Positions 5,836 through 29,943 of a stretch of DNA of 44,723 bases are shown here, one piece after another. The stretch spans positions 1 to 44,723 of IMG/VR virus record IMGVR_UViG_3300042938_001753. One strand, given 5' to 3'. Source of the stretch: a virus. Every line of letters starts with the position of its first letter. The stretch's first letter is position 1. The notes below the pieces were generated by a model. It saw only the letters and a list, made by a program, of their open reading frames with translations, was not told where the DNA came from and made no database searches. Position numbers and translations under genes: made by a program.

Positions 5836-5846
5836 GCTAATATAAT

Positions 5847-6440: not shown

Positions 6441-6447
6441 AATAAAA

Positions 6448-7005: not shown

Positions 7006-7027
7006 TATATATTTATTTAATTGATTA

Positions 7028-7513: not shown

Positions 7514-7528
7514 TTTAATACTTTTTTA

Positions 7529-7560
7529 CAAATATACTAAACTTTTTCAGTTACGACAAC
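7529..7560 (-). promoter_or_regulatory. Host-like (Bacteroidota sigma) promoter
   Basis: On the minus strand GTTG (7560-7557) is followed by exactly 20 bases and TATATTTG (7536-7529), with 15 bases to the ATG at 7513. The distal element lies inside the last codons of the upstream glycosyltransferase gene. Box type, spacer and distance to the start codon equal those of the polymerase promoter at 29897-29928. Confidence 0.65.
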
Positions 7561-8829
7561 ATTTCTTCTTAAGTAATTAGAATTTTCAGCATTTTTTAAT
7601 AAATCTAAATATAATTCACGTCTTTTTTCAGTTACAGCAGTAATACTATAAGTATTTTTAACTGTATTATGTAAATTAGTAGCTAATATCTCAATTTGCT
7701 CTGGATTATTAATCAATTTTTTAATTGAATCATACCATTGTTTATGATTTTTAACAGAATCAACCAAATAAGCATTTGCTTCTGGATTGAATGTGGTAGG
7801 TTCATTTTTACTACCTTTAATATTAGCATCAACTAAATCAATTTTGTATGGACCAAAGTTTTGAGCAATAATAGCTTTTTTGTGGAAACCAGATTCAATT
7901 ACTTTTAATTGAGATTTAACTTTGTTGAAGATATTCTCTTCAAGTGGTGCTAATGAAATATCAAATAGATTGTAGTTAGTAGCGTATGTACTAATTGGTT
8001 TAGTCCATACTCTTCGGTAAGGTTCGTTTTCAACACCTTGGAAATCTTCTTGTTTGAATTTCAATAAGAAATCTCTATACTCTGGACTAACAGTTGAATA
8101 GTTATCTGTAAAGATTTTCTCATATTGATACCATACTGATTCTTCAGGTCTGATAGGTCTTTGTGTTTGTTGACCAGTATTTTGGTCAATCATTGTAATT
8201 GTACCTCTTAAATCATAACCACATAATACAAATTGTACTTTATCCAATAGACCAGCACTTTTTAATTTACCAACTAAACCGTTAAGTAATTTTAAATCTT
8301 CTAAGTGAGAAGAACCACCTAACCATCCAATTCTAATTCTATCAGATTTCTCTGGATTAGAAATATATTGTTTTGTAGTTGGGTCAATAGCATTTGGTAA
8401 TACAAATGTATTTTTATTATATTTTTTGATTTCATCAGCAAATAAATCAGTTGTTGTAGTTACGTTTTCAGCAACCTTGATATTACCTAAGATTTTCTCA
8501 TCTAATTTATTATTCTTAATGATTAAATATGCTGGGTGATGAGTACCTGGAGCCCAATAATCATCCAAATCCATAATAGTAACAATACCTAAACGTTTTG
8601 TTCTTTCTAAGATTTCTGGCATAGTTTCAAATGCTCCTAATGTTCTGTGATAATGAATAATATCATATTGTTTCAACCATTCATCATTACCTAATTGTGG
8701 TTCGTAATCAATATCAACACTAAATTCTTCAGCATACATGTCTTCTAATGCAATGTGTGGGTTTACCGAACGGAATGCTCCAACACCAGTGCGGTCAGAA
8801 GGAACAACTAATACTTTAATTTTACTCAT
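7537..8829 (-). CDS. GT-B (GT4-like) glycosyltransferase
   Basis: The 430-residue protein has a GT-B two-domain plan. The N-terminal domain opens with KIKVLVVPSDRTGVGAFRSV and contains YDIIHYHRTLG and a MDLDDYW motif. The second Rossmann-like domain begins about residue 165 with RIRIGWLGGSSHLEDL, then VQFVLCGYDLRG, and a donor-site region NLFDISLAPLEENIFNKVKS followed by KVIESGFHKKAIIAQNFGPY, where Glu is expected to bind the nucleotide-sugar ribose. This fits GT4-like transferases of phage and of surface-glycan loci. It appears to stand alone between the hairpin at 8894-8913 and the promoter at 7529-7560. Acceptor and sugar are unknown. No clear promoter is seen in the 64 bases between the hairpin and its start. 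Confidence 0.75.
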   Translation of the reverse strand: MSKIKVLVVPSDRTGVGAFRSVNPHIALEDMYAEEFSVDIDYEPQLGNDEWLKQYDIIHYHRTLGAFETMPEILERTKRLGIVTIMDLDDYWAPGTHHPAYLIIKNNKLDEKILGNIKVAENVTTTTDLFADEIKKYNKNTFVLPNAIDPTTKQYISNPEKSDRIRIGWLGGSSHLEDLKLLNGLVGKLKSAGLLDKVQFVLCGYDLRGTITMIDQNTGQQTQRPIRPEESVWYQYEKIFTDNYSTVSPEYRDFLLKFKQEDFQGVENEPYRRVWTKPISTYATNYNLFDISLAPLEENIFNKVKSQLKVIESGFHKKAIIAQNFGPYKIDLVDANIKGSKNEPTTFNPEANAYLVDSVKNHKQWYDSIKKLINNPEQIEILATNLHNTVKNTYSITAVTEKRRELYLDLLKNAENSNYLRRNVVVTEKV

Positions 8830-13882: not shown

Positions 13883-16800
13883 ATGGGATATAGAACAAAA
13901 TTAGATTATTCTAGTAATAGGCAAATAAGCCAAAGAGAAAAAACTGATACAATATTATCTGGTTCAACAGTGTTTGGATTACCTTTTAGTGGGTTAACAG
14001 TAGGTCCTGATTTAAACACTAGTGGTATTACTAATAGTTATGGTGGTGTGATTAGTACATTTTCTGGTAACTCATCAACAACCGTATATAATTGGTTTGA
14101 CCCAAGAATGCAATTAGCTGTTGGTTATTTGTCAGCTATAACACCTACTACTAGTGCTATAACTCAAGAAACTGGTTTTATTTATACTGGTGATACAACT
14201 ATAACAGTTGATGGTAATACATCCTATTTAAATTATACTGGTACATATTTTACAATGTTTGCAAATTATGTTGTTGATTTAGGTGGTGGTTCTTATTCAG
14301 GTACAGTTGAACATGAAACAGTATATTTCTTATCTGCAAGTTCTGTAGATTATAGTGGTAGAACAATATGGATTGATAATCCAGAAATAACAAGAACTGA
14401 TAGACTTATTATAAGTAGAAACCCACAAGTCGGATATGTATGGACTTGTGTTGATAATGAAGGAATGGGTGAATGGGTTTTTAACTCAAGTGCTACAACA
14501 GCGTCAATATGGATAACTGGTACTGGTGTTAATTCAGCAGTATTAGGTGGGTCTGGCGGAATTGCGACTGGTTCAACATCAGTATCTGAAGGTGTTAATA
14601 CACGAGCTTATGGTATAGCATCACATGCTGAAGGTGGTGGGTCAATTGCTTCTGGCGATTTATCACATGCTGAAGGTGAAGATACTATAGCAAGTAATAC
14701 CGCATCACATGCTGAAGGAACTAATACAACTGCAAGTGGCGTTTATTCACACGCTGAAGGTTCAAATACTATAGCTGCTGGTACTAGAAGTCACGCTGAA
14801 GGATATTTAACAGTAGCATCTGGAGTTACATCACATGCTGAAGGTGATTCTACAACTGCACATGGTGGTAATTCACATGCTGAAGGTCTTAGCACAGTCG
14901 CATGGGGACCTAATTCACATGCTGAAGGTAACCAAACAATTGCAAGTGGTGATTCAGCACATGCTGAAGGTGTTAGTACAACAGCTACTGGTAACCAATC
15001 ACATGCTGAAGGTGATTCTACAACTGCATGGGGTAATTCATCACATGCTGAAGGTAATGGTACAATAGCTAGTGGTAGTTCATCGCACGCTGAAGGAGCA
15101 GCTACAACAGCTATTGGTAATAGTTCACATGCTGAAGGTGATAGTACAATAGCTAGTGGTGATACATCACACGCTGAAGGTAATGGTACAACAGCTAGTG
15201 GTTATATTGCACATGCTGAAGGTAATGGTACAACAGCTACTGGTACAGCATCACATGCTGAAGGTAGTGCTACATGGGCTTATGGTACTTATTCACATGC
15301 TGAAGGTGTTGGTTCAACTGCATGGGGTAATTATTCTCATGCTGAAGGGTCTGGTTCAATATCAAGTGGTGATTTTTCACATGCTGAGGGTCTTCAAACA
15401 ATAGCTACTGGTAATTTTGGTTCACATGCTGAAGGTCATTATACAACAGCTACTGGTATTAATGGAGCACATGCTGAAGGTAGTACTACAATAGCTTCTG
15501 GCGCTAGTTCACATGCTGAGGGTGCATTAACAACTGCTAGTGGTGATGGTTCGCATGCTGAAGGTTATTATACAAGAGCTTATGGTCTTTATTCACATGC
15601 TGAAGGTAGTCAGACAACTTCAAGTTCTGATTATTCACATGCTGAAGGTAATGGTACAATAGCTAGTGGTAGTTCAGCACACGCTGAAGGATATTTAACA
15701 CATGCTTTAGGTGGTGCATCACACGCTGAAGGTTATCTTTCAAAAGCTGTTGGTGAAGGCTCACATGCCGAAGGGGGTTCATACACTCTTGGTATTACTG
15801 GTAGCACTGCAATTGGTATTGCGTCTCATGCTGAAGGTGCTGGTACAACATCTTATGGTGATTATTCACATGCAGAAGGTCGTAATACAAAAGCATCTGG
15901 ACTTACTTCACATGCTGAAGGTTCTAATACAACTGCTGGTGGATTATATACACATTCTGAAGGTGTTAACACAACCGCAATTGGTAATTTTTCACATGCT
16001 CAAAATAATACTACAAGAGCATTAGGTAGTTCGTCACATGCTGAAGGTAGTGCTACAACAGCTGGTGGTTATGGTTCACATGCTGAAGGTAGTGATACAA
16101 AATCACTTGGTCAATCGACACATTCTGAAGGGTCAAATACAACTGCAACTGGTCAATCAGCACATTCTGAGGGTATGTTTACAACTGCATTTGGTGATTA
16201 TACACACACTGAAGGTTATGGTACATCAGCTTATGGTTCTGCGTCACATAGTGAAGGTCTTCAAACATCAGCTACTGGCGCTAATTCACATGCTGAAGGT
16301 AGCCAAACAAAAGCTACTGGTGATACATCACATGCTGAGGGTATTCAAACAAGAGCTTTTGGTGATTATTCTCATGCTGAAGGTGGTCAAACAACTGCAT
16401 CTGGTCTTTATTCACATACTGAGGGTCAAGGTACAAAAGCTACTGGTAGTACAACTCACGCTGAAGGTAGTACTACTGTAGCTGGTGGTAATGCGTCACA
16501 TAGTGAAGGTAGTCAAACAACTGCATTTGGTGATAACTCACATTCTGAAGGTCGACTTACAACAGCATCTGGTGAAAGTTCACATGCTGAAGGTAGTGGT
16601 ACAACAACAACTGGTCTTTATTCACATACTGAAGGTCAAGGTTCTATTGCTGGTGGTACAGCATCACATGCTGAAGGTTACTTTTCATTAGCTAGTGGTT
16701 TTGGGTCACATGCTGAAGGTGGTTCACCTACATTTTCTGTAAGTGGTGGTACTGCTTCTGGTACTGGGTCACATGCTGAAGGGTTTAGAACAACTGCTAT

Positions 16801-18568
16801 CGGTAGTGCAGCACATTCTGAAGGTGGGTTTACAACAGCTGAAGCTCCTTATTCACATGCTGAGGGTAGTAATAGTATAGCATCTGGAACTACATCACAT
16901 GCTGAAGGATTTACAACAAGAGCATATGGTAATTATTCACATGCTGAAGGTGAAAGTACTAGAACATATGGTCAAAGTTCACATGCTGAGGGATATTATT
17001 CATTTGCTATTGGAGAAGGTTCACATGCTGAAGGTGGTGCATTTGGTTATAGTTTAACTGGTAGTACTGCAATTGGTAAAGCATCACATGCTGAAGGTGT
17101 TGGTACAACATCTTATGGTGATTATTCTCATGCTGAGGGGTTTGGTTCAATTGCTACTGGTACTACGTCACATGCTGAGGGTTATCAAACGAGTGCTTTA
17201 GGTCAATCGACACATTCTGAAGGTCAAAGTACAACAGCTTTAGGTAATTTTTCACACGCTGAAGGTTTATCAAATACCGCTATTGGTGGTTCATCACATG
17301 TTGAAGGTAACGGAACAACCGCAACTGGTTCCACAGCACATGCTGAAGGTAGTTCTACTAGAGCTTTTGGTGACCAATCACATGCTGAAGGGCTACAAAG
17401 TACCGCTAGTGGTACTGGGTCACATGCTGAAGGGTCAAATACAACAGCTAGTGGTACTTTTTCACATGCTGAAGGATTTTATGCACAAGCAACTGGACCT
17501 TCATCACATGCAGAAGGAGCTCAAACAAGAGCATGGGATTTTTACGCACATGCTGAAGGTGTTAGTACAACTGCTAGTGGAATTGGTTCACATGCTGAAG
17601 GTGGTGAAACAACTGCTAGTGTCACATATGCACATGCTCAAGGATATCAAACTGTATCTTCTGGTTGGGCATCACACGCTGAAGGTCAAGGTACAAAAGC
17701 TACTGATATGTATGCACACGCTGAAGGTAATGGTACAACAGCTAGTGGTCAAGGGTCGCATGCTGGTGGCGGTAATTCAATTGCTAGTGGTCAATATTCA
17801 TTTGTACATGGTCAGAATTCAAAAGCTGATAACTCAACTACAGTAGTTTTTGGCTCTAATATAACTGGTACTTCATCAAATACTGTATATGTCCCTGATT
17901 TAGTTATTGATGGTTTAACATCAACTGACCCAATTGCAACTAACGCTGCTGGGTTAATCGTTGCTGGTACTTCTGATGCTAGACTTAAACAAAATATTAA
18001 TGAACTAACTAATTCTTTAGATGTAATTAAAAATCTTAGAGGAGTATCATTTGAATATACACCTGAATCTGAAATGGGTAGTGGTGTTAGATATGGATTC
18101 ATTGCTCAAGAGGTTCAAGAGTTTGTACCTGATATTGTTAGAGCTAGAGCTAAAGGTGATGGTATGTTATCATTAAATTATAATGAGATTGTTCCTATTT
18201 TAGTTGAAGCAGTTAAAGAATTATCAACTGATATAACTAATAATACATATTTAGAGACACAAACAATATTAGCTGAAGATAATAATATAGAATTAAATTA
18301 TAATGGGACTCATCAATCTGCATTGGATGGTGGTATAACTATAAAACATGGTATTGACACTGATACTGATACTCACTTCAAATTAAATTCTGATGGTGAT
18401 TTCATTACAAATGTTAATTTAATACCTAAAGGAATTGTGATACCAGAGTATACACCAACATCAAGTTCAGATACTTATGGGATTATAGGTAACTTTACTA
18501 AAGATGAAAACTATTTATATATAAAAGGAAATAACGGTTGGAAACGAGCTAATTTAGAAAACTTTTAA
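13883..18568 (+). CDS. Giant SHAEG-repeat tail fibre with C-terminal S74 chaperone domain
   Basis: The 1561-residue protein is a probable trimeric tail fibre. Residues 1-230 form a beta-rich N-terminal region that likely anchors to the virion. Residues about 235-1310 hold about 75 tandem 14-residue units of the form SHAEGxxTxASGxx, like the left-handed beta-roll of YadA-type adhesin heads. Three units have 21 residues. An exit module (VVFGSNITGT, TVYVPDLVIDGL) follows. Then comes a Peptidase_S74 intramolecular chaperone: SDARLKQNI with the expected catalytic Ser1364 and Lys1369, LRGVSFEYTPE, YGFIAQEVQE and LNYNEIVPILVEAVKEL. Unusually, about 110 residues continue past the S74 core, ending YLYIKGNNGWKRANL. 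S74 domains trimerise the fibre and cut themselves off; the extension would leave with the chaperone. Confidence 0.88.
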   Translation: MGYRTKLDYSSNRQISQREKTDTILSGSTVFGLPFSGLTVGPDLNTSGITNSYGGVISTFSGNSSTTVYNWFDPRMQLAVGYLSAITPTTSAITQETGFIYTGDTTITVDGNTSYLNYTGTYFTMFANYVVDLGGGSYSGTVEHETVYFLSASSVDYSGRTIWIDNPEITRTDRLIISRNPQVGYVWTCVDNEGMGEWVFNSSATTASIWITGTGVNSAVLGGSGGIATGSTSVSEGVNTRAYGIASHAEGGGSIASGDLSHAEGEDTIASNTASHAEGTNTTASGVYSHAEGSNTIAAGTRSHAEGYLTVASGVTSHAEGDSTTAHGGNSHAEGLSTVAWGPNSHAEGNQTIASGDSAHAEGVSTTATGNQSHAEGDSTTAWGNSSHAEGNGTIASGSSSHAEGAATTAIGNSSHAEGDSTIASGDTSHAEGNGTTASGYIAHAEGNGTTATGTASHAEGSATWAYGTYSHAEGVGSTAWGNYSHAEGSGSISSGDFSHAEGLQTIATGNFGSHAEGHYTTATGINGAHAEGSTTIASGASSHAEGALTTASGDGSHAEGYYTRAYGLYSHAEGSQTTSSSDYSHAEGNGTIASGSSAHAEGYLTHALGGASHAEGYLSKAVGEGSHAEGGSYTLGITGSTAIGIASHAEGAGTTSYGDYSHAEGRNTKASGLTSHAEGSNTTAGGLYTHSEGVNTTAIGNFSHAQNNTTRALGSSSHAEGSATTAGGYGSHAEGSDTKSLGQSTHSEGSNTTATGQSAHSEGMFTTAFGDYTHTEGYGTSAYGSASHSEGLQTSATGANSHAEGSQTKATGDTSHAEGIQTRAFGDYSHAEGGQTTASGLYSHTEGQGTKATGSTTHAEGSTTVAGGNASHSEGSQTTAFGDNSHSEGRLTTASGESSHAEGSGTTTTGLYSHTEGQGSIAGGTASHAEGYFSLASGFGSHAEGGSPTFSVSGGTASGTGSHAEGFRTTAIGSAAHSEGGFTTAEAPYSHAEGSNSIASGTTSHAEGFTTRAYGNYSHAEGESTRTYGQSSHAEGYYSFAIGEGSHAEGGAFGYSLTGSTAIGKASHAEGVGTTSYGDYSHAEGFGSIATGTTSHAEGYQTSALGQSTHSEGQSTTALGNFSHAEGLSNTAIGGSSHVEGNGTTATGSTAHAEGSSTRAFGDQSHAEGLQSTASGTGSHAEGSNTTASGTFSHAEGFYAQATGPSSHAEGAQTRAWDFYAHAEGVSTTASGIGSHAEGGETTASVTYAHAQGYQTVSSGWASHAEGQGTKATDMYAHAEGNGTTASGQGSHAGGGNSIASGQYSFVHGQNSKADNSTTVVFGSNITGTSSNTVYVPDLVIDGLTSTDPIATNAAGLIVAGTSDARLKQNINELTNSLDVIKNLRGVSFEYTPESEMGSGVRYGFIAQEVQEFVPDIVRARAKGDGMLSLNYNEIVPILVEAVKELSTDITNNTYLETQTILAEDNNIELNYNGTHQSALDGGITIKHGIDTDTDTHFKLNSDGDFITNVNLIPKGIVIPEYTPTSSSDTYGIIGNFTKDENYLYIKGNNGWKRANLENF
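14585..17830 (+). repeat. Coding 42-bp repeat array (SHAEG units, about 75 copies)
   Basis: Units of 42 bp, with a conserved core TCACATGCTGAAGGT and a variable rest, run in frame without break. A few units are one residue longer and three are 21 residues (at about 15760, 16715 and 17025). The unit length is a multiple of three, so loss or gain of units keeps the frame. It also opens long shadow reading frames. Confidence 0.95.
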
Positions 18569-18570: not shown

Positions 18571-20367
18571 ATGAGTAACTTAAACAATTTTAATTTTAAT
18601 AAATTAGATTTAAGGTTATCCAATAGCGATTATTGGGATTTCTTTATAGCTAATGATTATAACTTTGGTGCTGGTGGTGCTGGTGGAATGGGCGAAGGTA
18701 ATTGTTTTGTTGTTCATTATGATTTTGATGATATAGCTACATTCAATAGTGCTACCACTATCGATACAATTTATTCATTGGTTACGTGGGATAACGCAGT
18801 TAATACTGGTTATACTTTAGATAATATAGGATTTACTGGTTTAGATAATGGTTTATTAACATATGTTAAACAAACTGGTGATACATTTAATACTGGATTA
18901 ACTCAAGTATTAACTGGTTCTACAGTTATAATCCCATCTGGAGACACTAGATTAATATTAAATAGAGTTACTGGTTCAACTGGTAATTATGTTTATCCGA
19001 TTCAAAAAATAATTAACCCTACATCAATAGGGAATAATATTAAATTTTGTGGTGGGTTTTATCAAGGTTATTTTAAATTAGATAATTATAACTATCAAGT
19101 ATTACCAACTAGGGTTAATAAAGCTTGGGTTGCTGATTTTTGGTTGAATAAAACATCTGGGTGTACAGCCACAACTGGAACGACATTAAATGACATTTAT
19201 CCAAATAATAAAGGATTTTTCTTTTATATGGGTACTAGAGCTGAAAATAAATATTGGAATGTATTTGAAGGTTTAAATACTGGATGTACACTTCAAACTT
19301 CAGCATGTACTGGAACAACAACATTCTTTACTTTAGAGAAGGAAACTGATATTAGTATTATTGGTGATTATGATATAGTATATCCATTAAGTCCACCATC
19401 AATAGACGTTAAATTTATTGAAAATCAATTCCTTATTTATGGTAGAGCAAATGGTAAAGGAGTTTGTAATACTTGTGGTAAAAGTGATGGTTTAGGTAGT
19501 GAAACAATATGTACATATACTGGCGGAACTTATATAAATGTATCAAAACATAGAATTACAAGTAAAAATAGAACTAATCCGTTCTTAGTATATGGTAGAG
19601 CAAATGGTAAAGGTATTTGTAATACATGTGCTAAAAGTGATGGATATGGTAGAGAAACAATTTGTAGTTTTTCTGGTAATTCATATGAGGAATTTGAATT
19701 AGATAGAGATGCGGATATTATCGATAACGCATTAGGATTCAGAATTAAAGATGATGGAAGTATTGGTTATCGATTATTGAAAGTATTAAGTGGTTGTACT
19801 GGTAACACGTATTTTACTGGTGTTACAGTTGAAGAACAATATTCAGAATCTGGAATAATCACTGAAGATGAATGGACTAGAGTTACAATTAGATATGTTG
19901 CAAATGAATATTATTCTGATGCTGATTTAAAATGTAAACCTAAACGTAAAGGTAGACTTATGTTCTATGTTAATTGTAGACTTAAAACTGCGTTTAATGA
20001 TGTTGATGAATTTGTTGGTAGAAGATTAAATGAATATAAAGATAAACAAATTGGAGTACCATTTAATTTTAGTTTAGGTGGTGGTTCTCAAGGATTGATT
20101 GAATCAATGACATTCGATGGTCAAGATTCTGCTGATTTAAGTCTTAAAATTGAAGAGAATTTTGCTGGTTCATTTATTGGTCAAATATCTCAATTTAAAT
20201 TCTATATATGTGATTTGAATTGGGTTGACATAAATAATGGCTGCTTATCTGATGGTCCTAGATACGGTTTACCAAATACACAACCAATTGAAGAATTTTT
20301 ATTAATAGATGAATTTGGAAATTATATAGTAAGTGAGGATGGATATGGTATTAATATAAATAACTAA
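18571..20367 (+). CDS. Virion protein with duplicated Cys motif and lectin-like C-terminal half
   Basis: The 598-residue protein starts two bases after the giant fibre's stop and is probably its partner. The N-terminal part has a glycine patch (GAGGAGGMGEGN) and a beta-rich region. Two copies of a 30-residue Cys motif follow, at about 286-315 and 336-365: FLIYGRANGKGVCNTCGKSD and FLVYGRANGKGICNTCAKSD, each then with ETIC. The Cys-x2-Cys plus Cys could bind metal. The C-terminal half (DNALGFRIKDDGSIGYRLL, then IEENFAGSFIGQISQFKFYI near residue 545) is like the LamG/concanavalin A fold, suggesting glycan binding. The end (FLLIDEFGNYIVSEDGYG) is a short motif type common at phage protein C-termini. 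Glycan binding is inferred from fold pattern only. Confidence 0.7.
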   Translation: MSNLNNFNFNKLDLRLSNSDYWDFFIANDYNFGAGGAGGMGEGNCFVVHYDFDDIATFNSATTIDTIYSLVTWDNAVNTGYTLDNIGFTGLDNGLLTYVKQTGDTFNTGLTQVLTGSTVIIPSGDTRLILNRVTGSTGNYVYPIQKIINPTSIGNNIKFCGGFYQGYFKLDNYNYQVLPTRVNKAWVADFWLNKTSGCTATTGTTLNDIYPNNKGFFFYMGTRAENKYWNVFEGLNTGCTLQTSACTGTTTFFTLEKETDISIIGDYDIVYPLSPPSIDVKFIENQFLIYGRANGKGVCNTCGKSDGLGSETICTYTGGTYINVSKHRITSKNRTNPFLVYGRANGKGICNTCAKSDGYGRETICSFSGNSYEEFELDRDADIIDNALGFRIKDDGSIGYRLLKVLSGCTGNTYFTGVTVEEQYSESGIITEDEWTRVTIRYVANEYYSDADLKCKPKRKGRLMFYVNCRLKTAFNDVDEFVGRRLNEYKDKQIGVPFNFSLGGGSQGLIESMTFDGQDSADLSLKIEENFAGSFIGQISQFKFYICDLNWVDINNGCLSDGPRYGLPNTQPIEEFLLIDEFGNYIVSEDGYGININN

Positions 20368-20387: not shown

Positions 20388-22574
20388 ATGGCAAATAAAG
20401 AAATTAGAGAATTTAATCCGTTAACAGCTGCAACTGGTAATGAGTTATTATTATTTATGCTTAGCGGTGTAACTAAAAATATGACACTTGATGTAGCTAA
20501 AGACTATATTTTTGATGGTGCTGGTGGTAATTTATCTTATTTAGGATTTAATATTATCCCAGATGAAATTAATCAAGATATTACTTTACCAGATAATAGT
20601 ACAGTATATTATAATGGTAGTCTAAATATGGGTTCTGGATATACATTAACAATACCTTCTGGAACAACATTAGAATTTATAGATGTAGATAATAGTTTTA
20701 TTACTGGTGACTCTACTAATAATTCAGTATTAATTGGTGGTACTGGAAATACAATTGATTCATTAGGTACTAATAGTGTTGTGATTGGTGGTATGGATAT
20801 TACTGGTACAACAGCTAATACAGTTTATGTACCTAATTTAAATATTAATAATTTATCAGCTGGAACAAGTGTAAATAATTTAGGAATTGATGCTAGTGGT
20901 AATGTAATTATAGGTACTACTGCTGGTGGTAGTGGTAGTAGTGGTGATACATATTGGATATCTGGTACAACTGGATTATATTCTATTAACGCTAATAATG
21001 ATAGTGGTTTAGTCGCATCTGGTGATTATTCACTTGCTGAAGGTAATGGTACTTATGCTAGTGGTAATAGTTCACATGCTGAAGGGTATTATACAACTGC
21101 TCAAGGTCTTTATTCACATGCTCAAGGTAATAGTACAATAGCTGAAGGTGAAGCGTCACATGCTGAAGGTTATGTTACATGGGCTTTTGGTGAAGCGTCA
21201 CGTGCTGAAGGACAATATACTTATGCTAGTGGTAATACGTCACATGCTGAAGGTAATAGTACAACAGCTAGTGGTAATTATTCACATTCTGAGGGTTTGT
21301 CAACAACTGCTCAAGGTGAAGCGTCACATGCTGAGGGTACTTTAACAACTGCTATTGGTGATTATTCTCATGCTGAAGGTTATAGTGCAACAGCTTTTGG
21401 TGGCATTTCACACGCTGAAGGTAATAATACCACAGCGTCTGGTTCTTATAGTCATGCTGAAGGATATAGAACAACAGCTAGTGGGAATACATCACATGCT
21501 GAAGGTTTTACAACATCTGCGTTTGGTACTTATTCACATAGTGAAGGTTATTTTACAATTGCTACTGGTACATCAGCACACGCTGAAGGACATCAAACTA
21601 CTGCTAATGGTCTTTATTCACATACTGAAGGTAGATTGACAACAGCAACTGGTAGTACGTCACATGCTGAAGGTAGAAGTACAAGAGCTTTTGGCACTTA
21701 TTCACATAGTGAAGGTTATTTTACTACAGCATTTGGTCAATCATCACATTCTGAAGGTGAAGGTACGTCTGCGTTTGGTGCTTATTCACATAGTGAAGGA
21801 TATCTAACAAAAGCTACTGGTACTACGTCACATGCTGAGGGTGAAAGGTCAACAGCCGCTGGTAGTGTGTCACATGCTGAGGGTTATTCTACAACCGCTA
21901 GTGGTGGTTATTCACATACTGAAGGTAATCGAACAACTTCAAGTTCTGATAATTCACATGCTGAAGGTTATTATTCAATAGCTAATGGTTATACCTCACA
22001 TGCTGAAGGTTATCAAACAACAGCTAGTGGTTATATTGCACATGCTGAAGGTTATGGTGCTGTAGCTAGTGGTAGTTCTGCACATGCTGAGGGTGGGTTT
22101 ACATTAGCTGGTGGTAGTGCATCACATGCTGAAGGTAATAATACAAGGGCTCTTGGTTACACATCACATGCTGAAGGTGATAGTACAACTGCTCAAGGTG
22201 ATTATAGTCACGCACAAAATTTTAATACAAAAGCTCTTGGTGATAGTTCAACTTCTATAGGTGATGAGACAATAGCTAATAATTATCTATCATTTGCTGG
22301 TGGTTATGCTTCTGTAGCTAATGGTTTAATATCATTTGTATTTGGTAATACATCTCAAGCAGATGGTGACACTACAATAGTATTTGGTGATAACATTACT
22401 GGTACAACTAATAATACAGTTTATGTACCAGATTTAGTAATTAAAAAATTAGCATCAACACCAGCAAACAGTGCTGATGTTATTGGTGAAAATGGTTCGG
22501 TAACATGGGATAATAATTATTTCTATTGGAAAGCAAATAACCAATGGTTAAGACTTAGTGGATTAACATTCTAA
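20388..22574 (+). CDS. SHAEG-repeat tail fibre protein without S74 domain
   Basis: The 728-residue protein starts NKEIREFNPLTAATGNELLL, a typical fibre N-terminal anchor. It continues with a beta-rich segment, a first exit-type module (TVYVPNLNINNL, NNLGIDASGN), an entry module (YWISGTTGLYSINANNDSGL, about residue 190), and about 32 SHAEG-type 14-residue units. It closes with VFGDNITGTTNNTVYVPDL and a short C-terminus (YFYWKANNQWLRLSGLTF) resembling the extension after the S74 domain of the giant fibre. With no S74 domain of its own, it may fold with another chaperone or with its neighbour. The fibre role is inferred from composition and location. Confidence 0.82.
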   Translation: MANKEIREFNPLTAATGNELLLFMLSGVTKNMTLDVAKDYIFDGAGGNLSYLGFNIIPDEINQDITLPDNSTVYYNGSLNMGSGYTLTIPSGTTLEFIDVDNSFITGDSTNNSVLIGGTGNTIDSLGTNSVVIGGMDITGTTANTVYVPNLNINNLSAGTSVNNLGIDASGNVIIGTTAGGSGSSGDTYWISGTTGLYSINANNDSGLVASGDYSLAEGNGTYASGNSSHAEGYYTTAQGLYSHAQGNSTIAEGEASHAEGYVTWAFGEASRAEGQYTYASGNTSHAEGNSTTASGNYSHSEGLSTTAQGEASHAEGTLTTAIGDYSHAEGYSATAFGGISHAEGNNTTASGSYSHAEGYRTTASGNTSHAEGFTTSAFGTYSHSEGYFTIATGTSAHAEGHQTTANGLYSHTEGRLTTATGSTSHAEGRSTRAFGTYSHSEGYFTTAFGQSSHSEGEGTSAFGAYSHSEGYLTKATGTTSHAEGERSTAAGSVSHAEGYSTTASGGYSHTEGNRTTSSSDNSHAEGYYSIANGYTSHAEGYQTTASGYIAHAEGYGAVASGSSAHAEGGFTLAGGSASHAEGNNTRALGYTSHAEGDSTTAQGDYSHAQNFNTKALGDSSTSIGDETIANNYLSFAGGYASVANGLISFVFGNTSQADGDTTIVFGDNITGTTNNTVYVPDLVIKKLASTPANSADVIGENGSVTWDNNYFYWKANNQWLRLSGLTF
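21020..22390 (+). repeat. Coding 42-bp repeat array (SHAEG units, about 32 copies)
   Basis: In-frame 42-bp units with the same TCACATGCTGAAGGT core as the array in the preceding fibre gene. The last few units lose the His (STSIG, SFAGG, SFVFG) as the array passes into the exit module. Confidence 0.93.
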
Positions 22575-22614
22575 CAAATAATAATAATAATAACTAAAAA
22601 TAAAACAAAAAAAA

Positions 22615-25227
22615 ATGGCAATTAGAAATGATTTGTATCTACCATCAAAAGGACTTACTGAGGGTAATTTTAACGGTGTAAAAATAAAAAACAGTTTAAG
22701 TGGGTTTATACCAGTTTATATTGACTCTAAAAATAAAGCAAGTGGAGCATTTAGTTTTGCTGAAGGTTATCAAACAACATCGTCTGGTAATTATTCACAT
22801 GCTGGTGGTTATAATTGTGTTTCGGTTGGCACTAATTCATTTGTTTATGGTGAAAATTCTAGAGCTGAAGGTAATACTACTATTGTGTTGGGTAGTGGAT
22901 TAACTGGCGCTACAGCTAATACAGTATATGTTAATAAATTAAATATAAAAACAATAACTGGAAATACTAGTGTTAATAATTTAGGTATAGATGCTAGTGG
23001 AAATATCGTTATTGGTAGTACTGGTGCTACAAGTAGTACTGAAGTGTTTGTTACTGGTGGTACTTACTCAAACGGAACAACTACATTTACTAACAATACT
23101 GGTGGTACATTTACAGTTACTGGATTTAAAACTAGTGATTTGGTAGTTACTGGAGGTACTTATTCAAATGGAACAGCTACTTTTACTAATAACACTGGAG
23201 GAACATTTACAGTTACTGGATTCAGTACTGGTGGTGGTACAGATAATTATTGGGTATCTGGTTCAACTGGTAATTATTCAATTAAAGCAATTAACAATAG
23301 TGGATTAGATGCTACTGGTAACTATTCACATGCTGAAGGTTATACTACAACAGCTAATGGTGTTGCATCACATGCTGAAGGTTATTTAACAAAAGCCATT
23401 GGTAATTATGGTTCACATGCTGAAGGTTATCAAACAACAGCAAGTGGTTCTAATTCACATGCTGAAGGTGTTAGTACAACTGCAATTGGTAATAATTCAC
23501 ATGCTGAAGGTATTGCAGCAATAGCGTCTGGTGATACATCTCATGCTGAAGGTAGTAGTACAAAAGCATTGGGGTCATCGTCACATGCTGAAGGTGAGGG
23601 GACAACTGCATTTGGTGATTATACACACTCTGAAGGTAACGCTACAATAGCTAGTGGTTATACATCACATGCTGAAGGTCTTGCTACAACAGCTATTGGT
23701 CAAGCGTCACATGCTGAAGGATATTACACAAAAGCTATTGGTGAAGATTCACATGCTGAGGGATATTATACAAGAGCTAGTGGTAATTATGGTTCACATG
23801 CTGAAGGTAGTTCTACAACAGCTAGTGGTAATTTTGGTTCACATGCTGAAGGTTCTTATACGATAGCTAGTGGCGAAGCATCACATGCTGAAGGTTCTTA
23901 TACAACAGCTATTGGTGATTATTCTCATGCTGGTGGTTATTATGCAAAAGCTAGTGGATTATATTCATTTGTACATGGTTCTACAAGTTTTGCAAATGGT
24001 TCAAGTGTTATTGTTTTAGGTGATAATATTACTGGTGCAACAGCAAATACAGTTTATGTAAATAAATTAAATATAAAATCAGTACCAGCTGGTACTAGTG
24101 TTAATAATTTAGGTATCGATGCTAGTGGTAATATTATCATTGGGTCAGGTGGTGGTGCTGATGTATTTGTTACTGGTGGTACTTATTCAAATGGAACAAC
24201 TACATTTAGAAATAATACTGGTGGTACATTTACTGTCACTGGTACAGATAATTCTTGGATATCTGGTGCTACTGGATTATATTCTATTAAGGCTAATAAT
24301 GATAGTGGTTTAGTCGCATCTGGTGATTATTCACTTGCTATGGGTTATAATACAAGAGCTACTGGTTGGATATCATATTCTGAAGGCTATGCTACAACTG
24401 CTAGTGGTGGTTATGGTTCACATGCTGAAGGTTGGTTGTCAACAGCTAGTGGTCATACATCACATGCTGAAGGATACAATACAACAGCTACTGGTATTAC
24501 ATCACATGCTGAAGGTCAATCTACAAAAGCTCTTGGTCAAGCGTCACATGCTGAAGGTGATAATACTCAAGCATTTGGTTATGGTTCACATGCTGAAGGT
24601 CAATTTACATTTGCAAATGGTCAAGGTGCACATGCTGAAGGTTATTATACAATAGCTCAAGGTTCTGGTTCACATAGTGAAGGTATATTTACAACAGCTA
24701 TTGGTGATTATTCTCATGCTGGTGGTTCAACTAATATAGCTAGTGGTAACTATTCATTTGTACATGGGTATAATTCAGTAGCAAGCGGTGCAACAACAAT
24801 TGTATTTGGTGATTATATTACTGGTACTGTTGCTAATACAGTTTATGTACCAGATTTAATTATTGATAATCTTAAAAATGCTGCTAGTTTATCAACAAAT
24901 GCTAGTGGTAAAGTTATAGTAACACCATCTGATGAAAGACTTAAACATAATATAACTGATTTATCTGATTCATTAACAAAAGTAAATAACCTTAGAGGTG
25001 TTTCATTTGAATTCAATGAAGAAGTTGAGATAGAAGGAACTAAATTAGGTTTTATAGCTCAAGAAGTTAATAATGTAATCCCAGAATTAGTTAATTTATT
25101 ACCTAATACTGAAGATATGTTAACAGTTGATTATGTAGGTATGATTCCAGTATTGGTTGAGGCTATTAAAGAATTGACTAAACAAAATTTAGAATTGAAG
25201 ACTAGATTAGATAACGCTAACCTATAA
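22615..25227 (+). CDS. Modular SHAEG tail fibre with C-terminal S74 chaperone domain
   Basis: The 870-residue protein contains three SHAEG arrays of different length: about 2-3 units near residue 45, about 16 units near 235-455 and about 11 units near 565-725. Each is followed by a VLG or VFG exit module with NTVYV, and two are preceded by a 26-residue TGGTYSNGTTTFxNNTGG module and a W(V/I)SG entry module. The C-terminus is a Peptidase_S74 domain: SDERLKHNI with Ser772 and Lys777, LRGVSFEFNEE, LGFIAQEVNN and VDYVGMIPVLVEAIKEL, ending in a short helix as in standard S74 proteins. It lies 40 bases after the previous fibre gene, with no late motif between them, and is followed by a strong terminator. 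A trimeric receptor-binding fibre is likely. Confidence 0.86.
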   Translation: MAIRNDLYLPSKGLTEGNFNGVKIKNSLSGFIPVYIDSKNKASGAFSFAEGYQTTSSGNYSHAGGYNCVSVGTNSFVYGENSRAEGNTTIVLGSGLTGATANTVYVNKLNIKTITGNTSVNNLGIDASGNIVIGSTGATSSTEVFVTGGTYSNGTTTFTNNTGGTFTVTGFKTSDLVVTGGTYSNGTATFTNNTGGTFTVTGFSTGGGTDNYWVSGSTGNYSIKAINNSGLDATGNYSHAEGYTTTANGVASHAEGYLTKAIGNYGSHAEGYQTTASGSNSHAEGVSTTAIGNNSHAEGIAAIASGDTSHAEGSSTKALGSSSHAEGEGTTAFGDYTHSEGNATIASGYTSHAEGLATTAIGQASHAEGYYTKAIGEDSHAEGYYTRASGNYGSHAEGSSTTASGNFGSHAEGSYTIASGEASHAEGSYTTAIGDYSHAGGYYAKASGLYSFVHGSTSFANGSSVIVLGDNITGATANTVYVNKLNIKSVPAGTSVNNLGIDASGNIIIGSGGGADVFVTGGTYSNGTTTFRNNTGGTFTVTGTDNSWISGATGLYSIKANNDSGLVASGDYSLAMGYNTRATGWISYSEGYATTASGGYGSHAEGWLSTASGHTSHAEGYNTTATGITSHAEGQSTKALGQASHAEGDNTQAFGYGSHAEGQFTFANGQGAHAEGYYTIAQGSGSHSEGIFTTAIGDYSHAGGSTNIASGNYSFVHGYNSVASGATTIVFGDYITGTVANTVYVPDLIIDNLKNAASLSTNASGKVIVTPSDERLKHNITDLSDSLTKVNNLRGVSFEFNEEVEIEGTKLGFIAQEVNNVIPELVNLLPNTEDMLTVDYVGMIPVLVEAIKELTKQNLELKTRLDNANL
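23305..24800 (+). repeat. Two SHAEG arrays split by an exit/entry module pair
   Basis: About 16 units at 23305-23970 and about 11 units at 24310-24770, separated by exit, TGGTYSNG and entry modules. The same order of modules occurs in the neighbouring fibre genes. A very short array lies earlier at about 22738-22860. Confidence 0.9.
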
Positions 25228-25245
25228 AAACAAATTAAAATAAAT

Positions 25246-25276
25246 AAAGCTGGGGTAAGTCTCCAGCTTTTTTGTT
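25246..25276 (+). terminator. Intrinsic terminator after the S74 fibre gene
   Basis: AAAGCTGG pairs with CCAGCTTT around a short loop (GGTAAGTCT), immediately followed by TTTTG and more T residues. It lies 18 bases after the stop at 25227 and closes the unit that begins at 20388. Confidence 0.85.
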
Positions 25277-25283
25277 TTTATAG

Positions 25284-25292
25284 ATATTTATT
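25284..25292 (+). promoter_or_regulatory. Putative late promoter element ATATTTATT
   Basis: Directly follows the terminator at 25246-25276 and lies 15 bases before the ATG at 25308, so a new transcription unit starts here. Confidence 0.5.
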
Positions 25293-25307
25293 TAATAAAA
25301 CAAACCA

Positions 25308-28300
25308 ATGAGCGATAGATTAATACTTAGGACTGTAACTAGTCCATTTTTAATACCTTATAACGATAATACAAAAGGAAATGTATTATCCCATACAGAA
25401 TTAGATAATAACTTTCTTTATTTAAAAGGTAATGTAATTTATACTGCTGAAACTTCTGGTAGTTTTGTTACATTAAAAAAATTAAATGGAGAAGATTTCA
25501 CATTTGAAGTTGGTTCAGGTGGTGGTGGAGGTGCTGGTGGTGATTTCTATTGGACATCTGGGTCTACTGGTACTAAATCAATAAAAGTAAATAACGGAAC
25601 TGGTTTAGATGCAACTGGTAACTATTCAGTAGCTGAAGGTTATGATACAACTGCTGGTGGTGATTATTCACATGCTGAAGGTTATAATGCACATGCTCTT
25701 AATAGTGCGTCACATGCTGAAGGTACTTTCACAATAGCTAGTGGTGTCGCGTCACATGCTGAAGGTGAGTTTACAACAGCTAGTGGTGATTATTCTCATG
25801 CTGAAGGTTCTGAAACTACTGCACAAGGTGATTATTCACATGCTGAAGGTTCTGAAACTACTGCACAAGGTGATTATTCACATGCTGAAGGTATTGTCAC
25901 AAAGGCTATTGGTAATTATTCACATGCTGAAGGATATGGGTCACAAGCTAAAGGTAACTCTTCACATGCTGAAGGTGAGTATACAATAGCATCTGGTACA
26001 ACAAGTCATTCTGAAGGTTCTGATACACAAGCGTTAGGTACGGATAGTCATTCTGAAGGTGCTAAAACAATAGCTATTGGTCGTCAATCACATGCTGAAG
26101 GTAAGGGTACCACTGCTAATGGGTTTGCTAGTCACTCTGAAGGTGAAGGTACAAAGGCTATTGGTAATTATAGTCATGCTGAAGGATATTTTACAACAGC
26201 AAGTGGTATTACATCACACGCTGAAGGTAATAATACAATTGCAAGTGGTGAAGGGTCACATGCTGGTGGTTATGGTACTTCTGGTTATGTAGTTGCTAGT
26301 GGTAATACGTCATTTGTTCACCAATACGTTAGTGGTAGTGGTCAATTTGGTGCTGGAAATTATGGTTCTTATGGTTCGTACTCAGCCATTTTAGGTGGTC
26401 AAGACCATTATATCCAATCTGGTTCAGAGTCTGGTTCTATAGTGGGTGGTAATTCACATTTATTATATGGTGCTAGTGTTAATTCTGGTATTTTTGGTGG
26501 TAATGCTAACTTATTAATTGATACGTACTATGGTGTTGTGTTAGGTGGTGATGCTAATGGTACAATACAAGCAGATAGTTCTGCCATAGTTGGTGGTTAT
26601 AATAACGTTATTGATACATTTAATTTTAATTTACCAACATATTCATTTATTGGTGCTGGTTCTAATAATAAAATAGAAAATAATTCTGGTAGTGGTGACG
26701 CAGTTGGTGATGTTATCATGGGTGGTGATAGTAATCTTATAGATGGGAATAATTCATTTAATGGTATTTACAACTCAAGTAACTCATATTTAACATCTCA
26801 ATCAACATCAGTCATCATAAATTCTGAAGGTAGCCATATAGAAGATGGTGGTGGTTTTGGTTCATCTAATAATACAATTATTGGTACTTACAATTCAACT
26901 ATTGAAGCTAATGGTGTAACTTATGCGTCAATATTTGGTGGTGCTAATAACAATATTTTTCAAGAAAATTCACTTGCTGGTATTATACCAAATTATTCGG
27001 TAATAATTGGTGGTGATGCTAATAGAATAGATAATTCTGATACTGCTACTATATTAAATGGTTTTACTAACACTATAGATACTAATAGTAAACAATCAAG
27101 TATTTTAAATGGTCAATACCACACAATTATTTCATCTAAATTCTCATCCATTATTGGTGGTAATTCAAATGAGATGACTGATAGTAATGGTTCTACTATT
27201 ATTGGTGGTTCGGATAACGGTATTTTATCAGATGGTAACCCAGCATTCACAAGATATTACAATGCTATCTTAGGTGGTACTGGTAATACAATTAGTAATA
27301 GTGAATTATCTTTCATTATGGGTGGTTATCAAAATGTTATACCATATGGTAAAGTAGGTGTGGTTATATTGGGTGGTGACAGTATTACTGGTTCGTCAAA
27401 TAATACTGTTTATGTTCAAAAATTAAATATAAAAACAGTTACTAATGATAACACAACAATTAGATTTTTAACATTAGACGCTAATAATAATGTTGCTTTT
27501 AGAAATTTAAGTAGTATTAGTGGTGGTACTGGTGGTGGTACTGGTGGTGATAGCTATTGGGTATCTGGTACAACTGGAACTTATTCGCTTAAAGCTTTAA
27601 ATGATAGTGGTTTAGATGCTGTAGCAAATTATTCTTTTGCAGTAAATAACGCTACAATGGCTGATGGTATTAATTCATTTGCTGCTGGACATTCAACATG
27701 GGCTAGAGGTTTAACATCCACTTCAATTGGTGAAAATACTGAAGCATTTGGTGATTATACATTTGCTGGTGGTCATAATACAAAAGCATCTGGTACAACA
27801 TCATTTATTTGGTCAACTGAATCAACAGCATTTGGTAATAGAAGTGCTGTATTAGGTGGTACTGGTATTGCTGGTAGTAATGATGATACTGTTTATGTAC
27901 CTTATTTAAATATACAGTCAGCTACAACTGATAACACATTAACTCAATTCTTAGTTAAAAGTACTGATGGTACAATAAAAACTAGAACATTACCTACCGA
28001 TGTAAGAGTTACTGGTGGTACTTATACTGATGGTAATGCTACATTTACAAATAATACTGGCGGTACTTTTACAGTAACTGGATTTAAAACTAGTGATACA
28101 TTTGTAACTGGTGGAACTTATAACAACTCCACTGGAACAGCTATATTTACTAATAATAGTGGTAGCACATTTAATGTAACTGGATTTAGTACTGGTTCAA
28201 CATCTGTAACTGGATTTACATATTCAAATAATAATTTAACTGTTAAACAATCTAGTGGTGATTTAACTGTTAATATTAATACAATGACTGGTTTAACGAT

Positions 28301-28649
28301 AAATGGTAATTTAACATTTACTGGTCAAACAAATAACCCAGTTTATACTGCTGGTACATTAACTTCATCATTTATACCAAACTGGGATAATAGTAATTTA
28401 CAACACGTTATATTATCTGCTGCAACTACTAGTATAAGTGGTGGTACGAATATTAAGAATGGTGCAGTTTATACTATGATTGTTAAACAAAATGCTACTG
28501 GTTCTAGATTGATAACATGGGCTACACAATATAAATGGCAATCAGGTATTGCACCAGTATTAAGCTCAACATCCAATTCAGTGGATATATTCACATTCAT
28601 AAGTGACGGTACAAACTTGTATGGTCTAATAGCAAAAGATTTTAGATAA
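25308..28649 (+). CDS. SHAEG plus GGN-repeat tail fibre protein
   Basis: The 1113-residue protein starts with a region containing LSHTELDNNFLYLKG (about residues 27-41), a motif seen in many phage fibre N-termini. It then has a glycine run, an entry module (YWTSGSTGTKSI), about 16 SHAEG units (to about residue 330) and about 340 residues of GGN or GGDxN repeats of another type (IIGGDANRI, IFGGANNNI, ILGGTGNTI), which probably form a further beta-helix. An exit module, a second entry module with a short array, and three TGGTY-type modules (about 905-965) follow. The end (ISGGTNIKNGAVYTMIVKQN, then WQSGIAP) resembles a fibre tip domain. No S74 domain is present. One 42-bp unit is exactly duplicated at 25797-25880. 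Its stop overlaps the next start. Confidence 0.84.
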   Translation: MSDRLILRTVTSPFLIPYNDNTKGNVLSHTELDNNFLYLKGNVIYTAETSGSFVTLKKLNGEDFTFEVGSGGGGGAGGDFYWTSGSTGTKSIKVNNGTGLDATGNYSVAEGYDTTAGGDYSHAEGYNAHALNSASHAEGTFTIASGVASHAEGEFTTASGDYSHAEGSETTAQGDYSHAEGSETTAQGDYSHAEGIVTKAIGNYSHAEGYGSQAKGNSSHAEGEYTIASGTTSHSEGSDTQALGTDSHSEGAKTIAIGRQSHAEGKGTTANGFASHSEGEGTKAIGNYSHAEGYFTTASGITSHAEGNNTIASGEGSHAGGYGTSGYVVASGNTSFVHQYVSGSGQFGAGNYGSYGSYSAILGGQDHYIQSGSESGSIVGGNSHLLYGASVNSGIFGGNANLLIDTYYGVVLGGDANGTIQADSSAIVGGYNNVIDTFNFNLPTYSFIGAGSNNKIENNSGSGDAVGDVIMGGDSNLIDGNNSFNGIYNSSNSYLTSQSTSVIINSEGSHIEDGGGFGSSNNTIIGTYNSTIEANGVTYASIFGGANNNIFQENSLAGIIPNYSVIIGGDANRIDNSDTATILNGFTNTIDTNSKQSSILNGQYHTIISSKFSSIIGGNSNEMTDSNGSTIIGGSDNGILSDGNPAFTRYYNAILGGTGNTISNSELSFIMGGYQNVIPYGKVGVVILGGDSITGSSNNTVYVQKLNIKTVTNDNTTIRFLTLDANNNVAFRNLSSISGGTGGGTGGDSYWVSGTTGTYSLKALNDSGLDAVANYSFAVNNATMADGINSFAAGHSTWARGLTSTSIGENTEAFGDYTFAGGHNTKASGTTSFIWSTESTAFGNRSAVLGGTGIAGSNDDTVYVPYLNIQSATTDNTLTQFLVKSTDGTIKTRTLPTDVRVTGGTYTDGNATFTNNTGGTFTVTGFKTSDTFVTGGTYNNSTGTAIFTNNSGSTFNVTGFSTGSTSVTGFTYSNNNLTVKQSSGDLTVNINTMTGLTINGNLTFTGQTNNPVYTAGTLTSSFIPNWDNSNLQHVILSAATTSISGGTNIKNGAVYTMIVKQNATGSRLITWATQYKWQSGIAPVLSSTSNSVDIFTFISDGTNLYGLIAKDFR
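25797..25880 (+). repeat. Exact tandem duplication of one 42-bp SHAEG unit
   Basis: The 42 bases at 25797-25838 and 25839-25880 are identical, coding twice for HAEGSETTAQGDYS. The neighbouring units that I compared differ at several bases, so this copy is recent. Confidence 0.95.
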
Positions 28650-29494
28650 TGTTTAACGTACCATTTAATTTTAGAGAAGGATATAGTTCAGGTGACCCTA
28701 TACCAGTATTTGGGACAGCTAAGGCTGTATTTTGGGTTGATGCTTTAAAGGGAGTTTATAATGGATTACCTTATGTCCCAGCAGCACTTAATAACACAGA
28801 TATTAGATTTTGGCAAGACCAAACTATATATGGTAATCATTTAACTGCTACGACAATTACTTCACCTTCATATTCTGCCACTACATTTGCGCCTTATGGT
28901 TCATCATCTTCATACCCATTTGTACAATTTAATGACGTTAATACAGAACATATGGCAGCTACTAATTCAGCTAGTTTACAAGTTATATCAACTGGATTCA
29001 CAGTATTCTTTGTTATAAGAAAAAATCCATTAAGAACTTGGAGTTCTGGTAACCCAATAATTGAATATAATGCTGCTTGGGGTTCTGAATCTGAAGGATT
29101 TGGTATTGATGGTGACGCTGGACCTAATTTTATAGATATGTGGTATTTTAACCAAGCATTTAATCCAACTAAAATTAGTGTACCATGGGGTTCTGGTGGT
29201 ATTGATGATGAAAAATTCTTTTATTATACATATAGAATGAGTGGTGGCACATGTACTGGTTATGCTGGTGCTACACTTAAAAGCACAGCTATTGCTGGTG
29301 GTGGGAATAAAAAAATGATGCCAGTATCCTCAACTGCTAAATTATATATTGCTGGTGGTTATAACGGTTCAACATACGCACAAGCAAGTGCAATAGATGT
29401 TGCAGAAGTATTAATTTATGATGGTGCTGTACCAAATGCTGGTTTGATTACAGTATGGAATTATTTTAAATCTAAATATGGATTTACAACTTAA
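28649..29494 (+). CDS. LamG/concanavalin-like lectin-fold virion protein
   Basis: The 281-residue protein is a likely glycan-binding or adhesin-type virion protein. It has the order of concanavalin A-like jelly rolls: AVFWVDALKGV (about 29-39), RFWQDQTIYGNHL, a YPFVQFND strand, FTVFFVIRKN, FFYYTYRMSGGTC, AKLYIAGGYNG, and the closing IDVAEVLIYDGAVPNAGLIT followed by VWNYFKSKYGF. The last helix-like motif is typical of LamG-like domains in phage and secreted bacterial proteins. Its ATG overlaps the TAA of the fibre gene by one base, so the two are translationally coupled and may act in the same fibre assembly. Ligand unknown. Confidence 0.72.
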   Translation: MFNVPFNFREGYSSGDPIPVFGTAKAVFWVDALKGVYNGLPYVPAALNNTDIRFWQDQTIYGNHLTATTITSPSYSATTFAPYGSSSSYPFVQFNDVNTEHMAATNSASLQVISTGFTVFFVIRKNPLRTWSSGNPIIEYNAAWGSESEGFGIDGDAGPNFIDMWYFNQAFNPTKISVPWGSGGIDDEKFFYYTYRMSGGTCTGYAGATLKSTAIAGGGNKKMMPVSSTAKLYIAGGYNGSTYAQASAIDVAEVLIYDGAVPNAGLITVWNYFKSKYGFTT

Positions 29495-29499
29495 CATAA

Positions 29500-29508
29500 A
29501 TATTTATA
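29500..29508 (+). promoter_or_regulatory. Putative late promoter element ATATTTATA
   Basis: Exact copy of the motif, but only three bases before the ATG at 29512. A functional promoter here would give a leaderless transcript, so confidence is lower. Confidence 0.3.
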
Positions 29509-29511
29509 TAT

Positions 29512-29886
29512 ATGGATTTTTACATTAATAAGAACGCAACATTACCAGTATTAAAACTTGAATTAATTCAAGATGGTATAAACAATTATACCCACTTTTT
29601 TGATTTAGTTCAAAACGCTAATATATACTTCAGTATGACTGACATTAAAACTGGTATTAAACATATTTCTAGAAAACTAACTGGACTATCACCTAAGACT
29701 GAATACGTAGGTTGTAGTATCGAAGAATATTATTTAGTATATCAATTTACAACTAGAGATACCTCAAAACCAGGTACTTATCTTGGACAATTCACAATTG
29801 AGTTTTTAGATGGTACTGGAACACTTGTTGTTCCTATCAGAGAAGAGCTTTATATTCAAGTTCTAGATGGTAGTATAAAAAAATAA
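29512..29886 (+). CDS. Small beta-rich virion protein (baseplate/fibre-associated?)
   Basis: The 124-residue protein starts MDFYINKNATLPVLKLELIQ and has alternating strands throughout: ANIYFSMTDIKTGIKHISRK, EYYLVYQFTTRDTSKPG, YLGQFTIEFLDGTGTLVVP and IREELYIQVLDGSI. The order, with an N-terminal 'LPxLxLEL' strand and later 'tGxYxGqFxIxF', is like the immunoglobulin-type N-terminal domains of baseplate/fibre attachment proteins in other phages. This is a pattern resemblance, not a firm family call. It is the last gene of the fibre region, followed by the polymerase promoter. Confidence 0.6.
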   Translation: MDFYINKNATLPVLKLELIQDGINNYTHFFDLVQNANIYFSMTDIKTGIKHISRKLTGLSPKTEYVGCSIEEYYLVYQFTTRDTSKPGTYLGQFTIEFLDGTGTLVVPIREELYIQVLDGSIKK

Positions 29887-29896
29887 ATACCATTCT

Positions 29897-29928
29897 ATTG
29901 TTTATTAGATTTTTTTAGTATACATTTG
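29897..29928 (+). promoter_or_regulatory. Host-like (Bacteroidota sigma) promoter of the DNA polymerase
   Basis: ATTG (29897-29900), exactly 20 bases, then TACATTTG (29921-29928), matching TTG-N20-TAnnTTTG. Fifteen bases separate the box from the ATG at 29944, the same as for the promoter at 7529-7560. Confidence 0.7.
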
Positions 29929-29943
29929 TAAAAAATTGTATAT

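Follow-up and report, generated by a model that had tools for sequence, protein, structure and literature searches.

Four fibre genes (13883, 20388, 22615 and 25308) were examined in a 44.7 kb linear IMG/VR virus record, IMGVR_UViG_3300042938_001753, the whole of which (44,723 nucleotides, AT-rich) is referred to here as the window (G000). The encoded proteins carry arrays of repeats with the motif SHAEG, which are bordered by a conserved entry module on the N-terminal side and a conserved exit module on the C-terminal side. This recurring entry-array-exit cassette had been proposed in a preliminary description made from the DNA letters, and it was recovered here: all of the strings quoted for it were located in the window, and profiles of the modules match related loci. 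Five canonical entries are present (one in gene 20388, two in 22615 and two in 25308) together with eight exits (one in 13883, two in 20388, three in 22615 and two in 25308).

Hidden Markov models of the entry and the exit were built from the window modules and run on the window and about 80 related loci (labeled L) at an independent E-value (iE) of <0.001, with reversed sequences serving as controls. A total of 51 exits and 32 entries were found. Matches in related loci reached i-Evalues of about 1e-8 to 1e-15, and the best values from the reversed sequences were 4.0 for the exit and 0.017 for the entry. Such a profile search had been suggested as a check on the cassette, and both modules turned up in many other uncultured viral contigs. 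At E up to 10, a tblastn search of 50,697 sequenced phages with the exit and entry strings gave no real match.

The first locus set had been fetched partly with array peptides, and the search was therefore repeated with a query lacking array sequence, exit core 2 of gene 22615 and its linker. All 34 distinct exits in this new set directly follow rolls (19 follow SHAEG arrays, 13 follow IGG arrays and two follow short roll-like stretches) and none lies elsewhere, while 11/11 new entries precede rolls. The first set gave the same picture, with 36/36 distinct entries (forms A and A2) directly preceding a roll and the exits directly following a SHAEG or IGG roll; the one weak case, at L083, has few coils ahead of the exit. 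The modules are thus confined to array borders, as had been predicted. Array length between them ranges from 0 to 78 units, and at L108 an entry-like stretch is followed almost at once by an exit. In L012, L014, L044, L050 and L055, insert domains of ~90–110 residues break SHAEG arrays and restart them (e.g., after NTQTGKYGAYLSGPITSGTITLNSSYG).

Three details of the original account had to be revised. Long SHAEG arrays do end in an exit, but the exit is not specific to SHAEG, because two exits in the window terminate IGG-type rolls (at the N-terminus of 20388 and at residue ~689 of 25308). The giant fibre 13883, which was thought to have only the exit part, also carries a divergent entry (IWITGTGVNSAVLGGSGGIATGSTSVSEG). 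The exit was said to begin at FVHG or FVFG; its start lies one coil earlier, at SHAGG or SFAGG. The coil preceding FVHG reads xxxGG in 29/34 exits, and over all SHAxG units the fourth residue is E 1,701 times and G 83 times.

The arrays are predicted to be YadA-type left-handed beta-rolls (PF05658). The Pfam family YadA_head matched the array genes with E-values of 1e-13 to 1e-24, and the array repeat has a period of 14, with Gly at position 8 (0.99) and Ala at position 6 (0.79), in agreement with the ~14-residue repeat of that family. Monomer structures of two cassettes were modelled with AlphaFold2: a minimal cassette from L069 (121 aa) and a cassette of gene 22615 from the window, the latter built with a 58-row alignment. 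Two strands per coil and a continuous left-handed roll were seen in both models. The minimal cassette has a mean predicted local distance difference test score (pLDDT) of 84.9; its roll is continuous from the entry Trp to NTVYA, mostly with pLDDT >90, and confidence drops beyond. Foldseek matched it to YadA-like heads, including BoaA and BpaC (for BpaC, root-mean-square deviation 0.6 Å over 57 columns with 40% identity). BpaC (7O23) is the closest solved structure by sequence (E 5.6e-26) and locally also by fold. In the window cassette, the exit has a pLDDT of 95–98 and its inner strands (HAGG, FVHG and IVFG) are spaced exactly 14 residues apart, with a last short strand at VY. A lack of alignment coverage makes the mid-part of this model poor.

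In both models the exit forms the last coils of one continuous 14-residue roll (pLDDT >90), and in the minimal model only, the entry forms the first coil at good confidence. Because the models show one continuous roll, entry and exit are taken to be terminal roll layers and not separate cap domains. The preliminary description had suggested that the exit may be a cap ending the roll and that the entry may start a new one, and had named placement within a continuous roll without cap-like structure as the outcome that would speak against that view. The continuous roll is what was modelled, and no separate cap structure was seen; what survives of the cap proposal is a cap-like chemistry, in which hydrophobic layers close a polar core. 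It is highly improbable that the modules are instead receptor-binding or enzymatic elements. Few non-repeat parts of the fibres are as conserved, which might suit such elements, but the modules recur mid-fibre, several to a fibre and in many different fibres, always where a roll begins or ends, and they are modelled as roll coils. A receptor-binding role was rejected because the modules sit at the roll ends.

The layer of BpaC is numbered GxNSVAIGAxSxAx, and its positions 5 and 7 form the core (PMC9543794). SHAEG aligns to STANG/STASG of BpaC in sequence alignments, which places His at position 5 and Glu at position 7. These residues occupy 0.92 and 0.90 of array layers, respectively, and both positions would be buried. 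The hydrophobic V/I at core positions 5 and 7 of canonical YadA was not found in the arrays. Membership in the YadA fold stands nonetheless, because hydrophobic residues at 5 and 7 are not a defining feature in BpaC. The arrays resemble BpaC at the sequence level in having a polar position 7 and in ending with hydrophobic layers on the C-terminal side. The 2022 BpaC paper (PMC9543794) described just one beta-roll in which position 7 is polar. IGG-type rolls, such as the one within the 25308 array (25611–27362), look like canonical hydrophobic-core rolls.

At both borders the core positions change in steps. Successive layers toward the exit carry His/Glu, His/Gly, Phe/His, Ile/Leu and Val/Val at positions 5/7, and mean hydropathy at these positions runs -2.2, -2.1, -1.1, +0.5, +3.3 and +3.2 (n=34). 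The entry layers carry Ile/Ala, Val/Glu and His/Glu, with I/L/V at position 5 in coil 0, V/L/Y in coil 1 and His in coils 2–3 (n=26). Exit layers are hydrophobic at both positions, and entry layers mainly at position 5. The polar core therefore appears to be closed at both ends by hydrophobic layers through stepwise replacement with Ile, Val, Leu or Phe.

Within the arrays, Glu7 of a layer almost always precedes His5 (rarely Arg5) in the next layer. The odds ratio for Glu7(n)-His5(n+1) was 195 in the first loci, compared to 53 within the same layer and 11 for the reverse neighbour; separately fetched loci gave 230, 55 and 11. The order was kept when only interior layers were counted (356, 119 and 14; P 1.7e-13). 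Several exceptions to the coupling carry Arg at position 5. In L015, L022 and L035 the array departs from the His/Glu pattern, with Glu disappearing a layer earlier than His. At these three loci a few hydrophobic layers follow and the His/Glu core then resumes, as if an exit met an immediate re-entry. A salt bridge between Glu7 and His5 is the natural reading of the coupling. The entry contributes a Glu that lacks a His in its own layer, and the exit a His that lacks a Glu, so such a ladder would close with no unpaired Glu.

These observations probably fit together as follows. The cassettes would be YadA-type left-handed parallel beta-rolls, forming parts of trimeric phage tail-fibre shafts, with the entry and exit as sealing end layers. 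Each SHAEG layer would contribute His (position 5) and Glu (position 7) to the core, giving a polar shaft core in which the Glu7 of each layer pairs with the His5 (or Arg5) of the layer after it. The entry would be the first coil, with Trp in its first outer strand and Ile5/Ala7 in its first inner strand, followed by a layer with Val, Leu or Tyr at 5 and Glu at 7. The exit would be the last four coils: SHAGG (His5 without Glu7), SFVHG, TIVLG and NTVYV. An array would then open with a Glu whose His sits one layer on and close with a His whose Glu sits one layer back, and the hydrophobic layers would seal both ends and lead the chain into whichever spacer, chaperone or tip follows. With both ends sealed, we propose, array length can vary and cassettes can adjoin many different neighbours. 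The modules may also act in folding by starting and ending the roll. The homotrimeric state is presumed, and the S74 chaperone counts indirectly in its favor. A further, more tentative possibility is that SHAEG represents a new beta-roll core chemistry, a Glu7(n)-His5(n+1) ladder running through tens of layers of the trimeric shaft, possibly ion- or water-holding and pH-responsive, which the end modules open and close.

Several points weigh against this interpretation. That positions 5 and 7 point inward is deduced from homology to BpaC and YadA. In the window-cassette model, the pLDDT of the entry Trp region is only 64–67, below that of the exit. The array ends contribute part of the Glu7-His5 coupling, interior deviations are few (8/10 informative cases), and most of the listed exceptions look like register errors at inserts. 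The sequences are related, and the P values overstate their independence. Three Glu near the threefold axis in every layer would also be unusual, and may need ions, water or protonation.

The closest named counterpart is the YadA-like head and neck of trimeric autotransporters. The BpaC head shares the 14-residue layers, G at 8 and A at 6 and 13, as well as a polar core with hydrophobic last layers. It differs in having Thr5 and Asn, Ser or Thr at 7 in place of the phage His5/Glu7, and in being flanked by a neck and coiled coil rather than by entry and exit modules and spacers. The autotransporter neck (PF05662 YadA_stalk, DAVNxxQL) and the exit are both conserved connectors that follow the last roll layer and lead into another fold, which for the neck is a coiled coil and for the exit is beta spacers, S74 or tips. 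The exit could thus be a divergent neck. TIVLG...NTVYV sits where the last head coil before the neck would be, its profile aligns with SNSVALG...DNTVSVG of BpaC and CbpF, and BpaC is likewise hydrophobic at 5/7 only in its last layers. However, YadA_stalk or neck sequence was matched in 0/18 exits at E up to 10, although the HMMER filters drop most weak hits at that level. The PDB profile match ends at the roll and leaves the linker IKxLxAGTSVNNLGIDxxG unaligned to any neck, and there is no DAVN..QL motif. We consider a divergent neck quite improbable. As terminal roll layers, the modules would instead work like an autotransporter neck without matching it.

The entry shares with the Trp-ring domain of BadA and Hia a conserved Trp close to the N-terminus of a trimeric head unit. 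The Trp-ring forms a beta-prism domain of its own (PMC2483945), whereas the entry Trp lies in the first coil of the roll. No family match to the YadA membrane anchor was found in the fibre genes by Pfam-type search, and the genes lie in a phage contig. As in S74-bearing long tail fibres of other phages, two of the four fibres end in an S74 intramolecular chaperone (13883 and 22615, not 20388 or 25308); the difference lies in the shaft, which here is a YadA-type roll bearing end modules. A search of the open-access literature found no publication that deals with the modules or with SHAEG as a phage-fibre motif.

The modules had also been proposed to be interchangeable, and they do occur with varied neighbours. 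At least four kinds of segment follow exits (the NNLGIDxNG linker, the LVRDTDG linker, S74 and the GSITWDD tip) and at least four precede entries (the TNNTGGTF spacer, the ISATTY spacer, an N-terminal arm and a direct linker). Entry and exit are not co-inherited; their distances within one cassette were uncorrelated (Mantel r -0.05, n=19), in a comparison of short sequences with low power. Evolutionarily, the modules seem to act as mobile units that retain some linkage, as exits partly keep their downstream neighbour class (0.60 vs 0.29 expected). A DNA-level search for recent cassette exchange gave only short high-identity stretches. Positions 23476–30990 of the window match L004, from another metagenome, with 99.99% identity over 7,515 bases and no indel. 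The arrays in this stretch were thus stable across both samples.

A second set of modules, dialect B, was found in gp101 of Flavobacterium phage immuto and in many viral contigs. Its SHAEG arrays are the same as those of dialect A, the dialect of the window, but the entry (ITGSLxQG...ATG) and exit (QHVQGQYN...AFIVGNG...RSNLIFASGSxVQVTG) differ in sequence. Arrays with both ends classified were 31 A-A, 19 B-B and 0 mixed (Fisher P 3e-14, inflated by relatedness), and 0/51 open reading frames in the new set had exits of both dialects; the two never occur together in one gene. The last coils of dialect B also turn hydrophobic (QHVQG, AFIVG, LIFAS, VQVTG). This bears on another explanation, that the modules are simply lineage-specific forms of an array's first and last repeat which duplication and recombination between fibre genes have preserved, with no special closing role. 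Recent copying is visible in the entries at 20952 and 24253 (92% DNA identity), and the partial retention of neighbour class would fit as well. Yet dialect B makes the same hydrophobic change from different sequences, the changes affect the two core positions (5 and 7) in keeping with the Glu7-His5 ladder, and the exits diverge widely in DNA (41–72%) while keeping the pattern. Variation by lineage with no closing role is therefore unlikely, and a sealing role for the end layers remains the preferred reading.

A scan of bacterial genomes gave one locus, L083, through a single peptide pattern, and rarity there is poorly measured. L083 (2612–5055) is in a Bacteroidetes metagenome-assembled genome and holds a full dialect-A cassette plus one more exit close to a gene read as a putative phage baseplate/tail-type protein; the locus is probably a prophage. 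Because this genome carries the full cassette and the dialect-B relative is a Flavobacterium phage, the host is likely a member of the Bacteroidota.

Table 1. Positions of entries, arrays and exit cores in the four fibre genes of the window.
Gene	Feature	Position	Strand	Remarks
13883	Divergent entry, form A2: IWITGTGVNSAVLGGSGGIATGSTSVSEG	14507..14593	+	Same form in L048
13883	Giant SHAEG beta-roll array (predicted), 70 units counted; SHAGG and SFVHG coils included	14594..17836	+	PF05658 YadA_head E 3.3e-22
13883	Exit core (TTVVFGSNITGTSSNTVYVPDLVID), then S74 chaperone domain	17837..17917	+	
20388	Exit core 1; closes short IGG-type roll; then NNLGIDASGN linker	20775..20855	+	
20388	Entry (YWISGTTGLYSINANNDSGLV)	20952..21014	+	92% DNA identity over 93 nt to entry at 24253
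20388	SHAEG array; pre-exit coils SFAGG and SFVFG included	21015..22370	+	42-nt period
20388	Exit core 2; then C-terminal GSVTWDN tip	22371..22451	+	
22615	Exit core 1; then DASGN linker and two VTGGTYSNG spacers	22876..22956	+	
22615	Entry 1 (YWVSGSTGNYSIKAINNSGLD)	23248..23310	+	
22615	SHAEG array 1; SHAGG and SFVHG coils included	23311..24003	+	
22615	Exit core 2	24004..24084	+	
22615	Entry 2 (SWISGATGLYSIKANNDSGLV)	24253..24315	+	
22615	SHAEG array 2; SHAGG and SFVHG coils included	24316..24792	+	
22615	Exit core 3; then S74	24793..24873	+	AlphaFold2 pLDDT 95-98 to about NTVYV strand
25308	Entry 1 (YWTSGSTGTKSIKVNNGTGLD)	25548..25610	+	
25308	SHAEG array running via SFVHQ into long IGG-type roll	25611..27362	+	
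25308	Exit core 1; after IGG roll	27363..27440	+	
25308	Entry 2 (YWVSGTTGTYSLKALNDSGLD)	27555..27617	+	
25308	Short degenerate array	27618..27842	+	
25308	Exit core 2; variant SAVLGGTGIAGSNDDTVYVPYLNIQ	27843..27920	+	

The fibre genes are surrounded by genes for a family-B DNA polymerase, an SNF2-type helicase, a dUTPase, glycosyltransferases and an IMPDH/GMP reductase-like protein. The glycosyltransferase block, the IMPDH/GMP reductase-like gene and the dUTPase lie at 642–8829, near the fibre genes and on the opposite strand. A further protein of the fibre locus (18571–20367) has no family match above cut-off. It contains a cysteine motif, YGRANGKGVCNTCGKSDG.G.ETIC, together with a near duplicate of it; the pair resembles a zinc ribbon, with a weak match to Pfam Zn_Ribbon_Prim (E 0.0019).

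The end layers described here would provide a simple, testable rule for how polar-core repeat fibres start and stop, and would explain why their arrays can vary in length. They also point to a large natural set of charged-core beta-rolls. If the end modules were named, fibre genes of uncultured Bacteroidota phages, now marked as unknown, would be easier to annotate.

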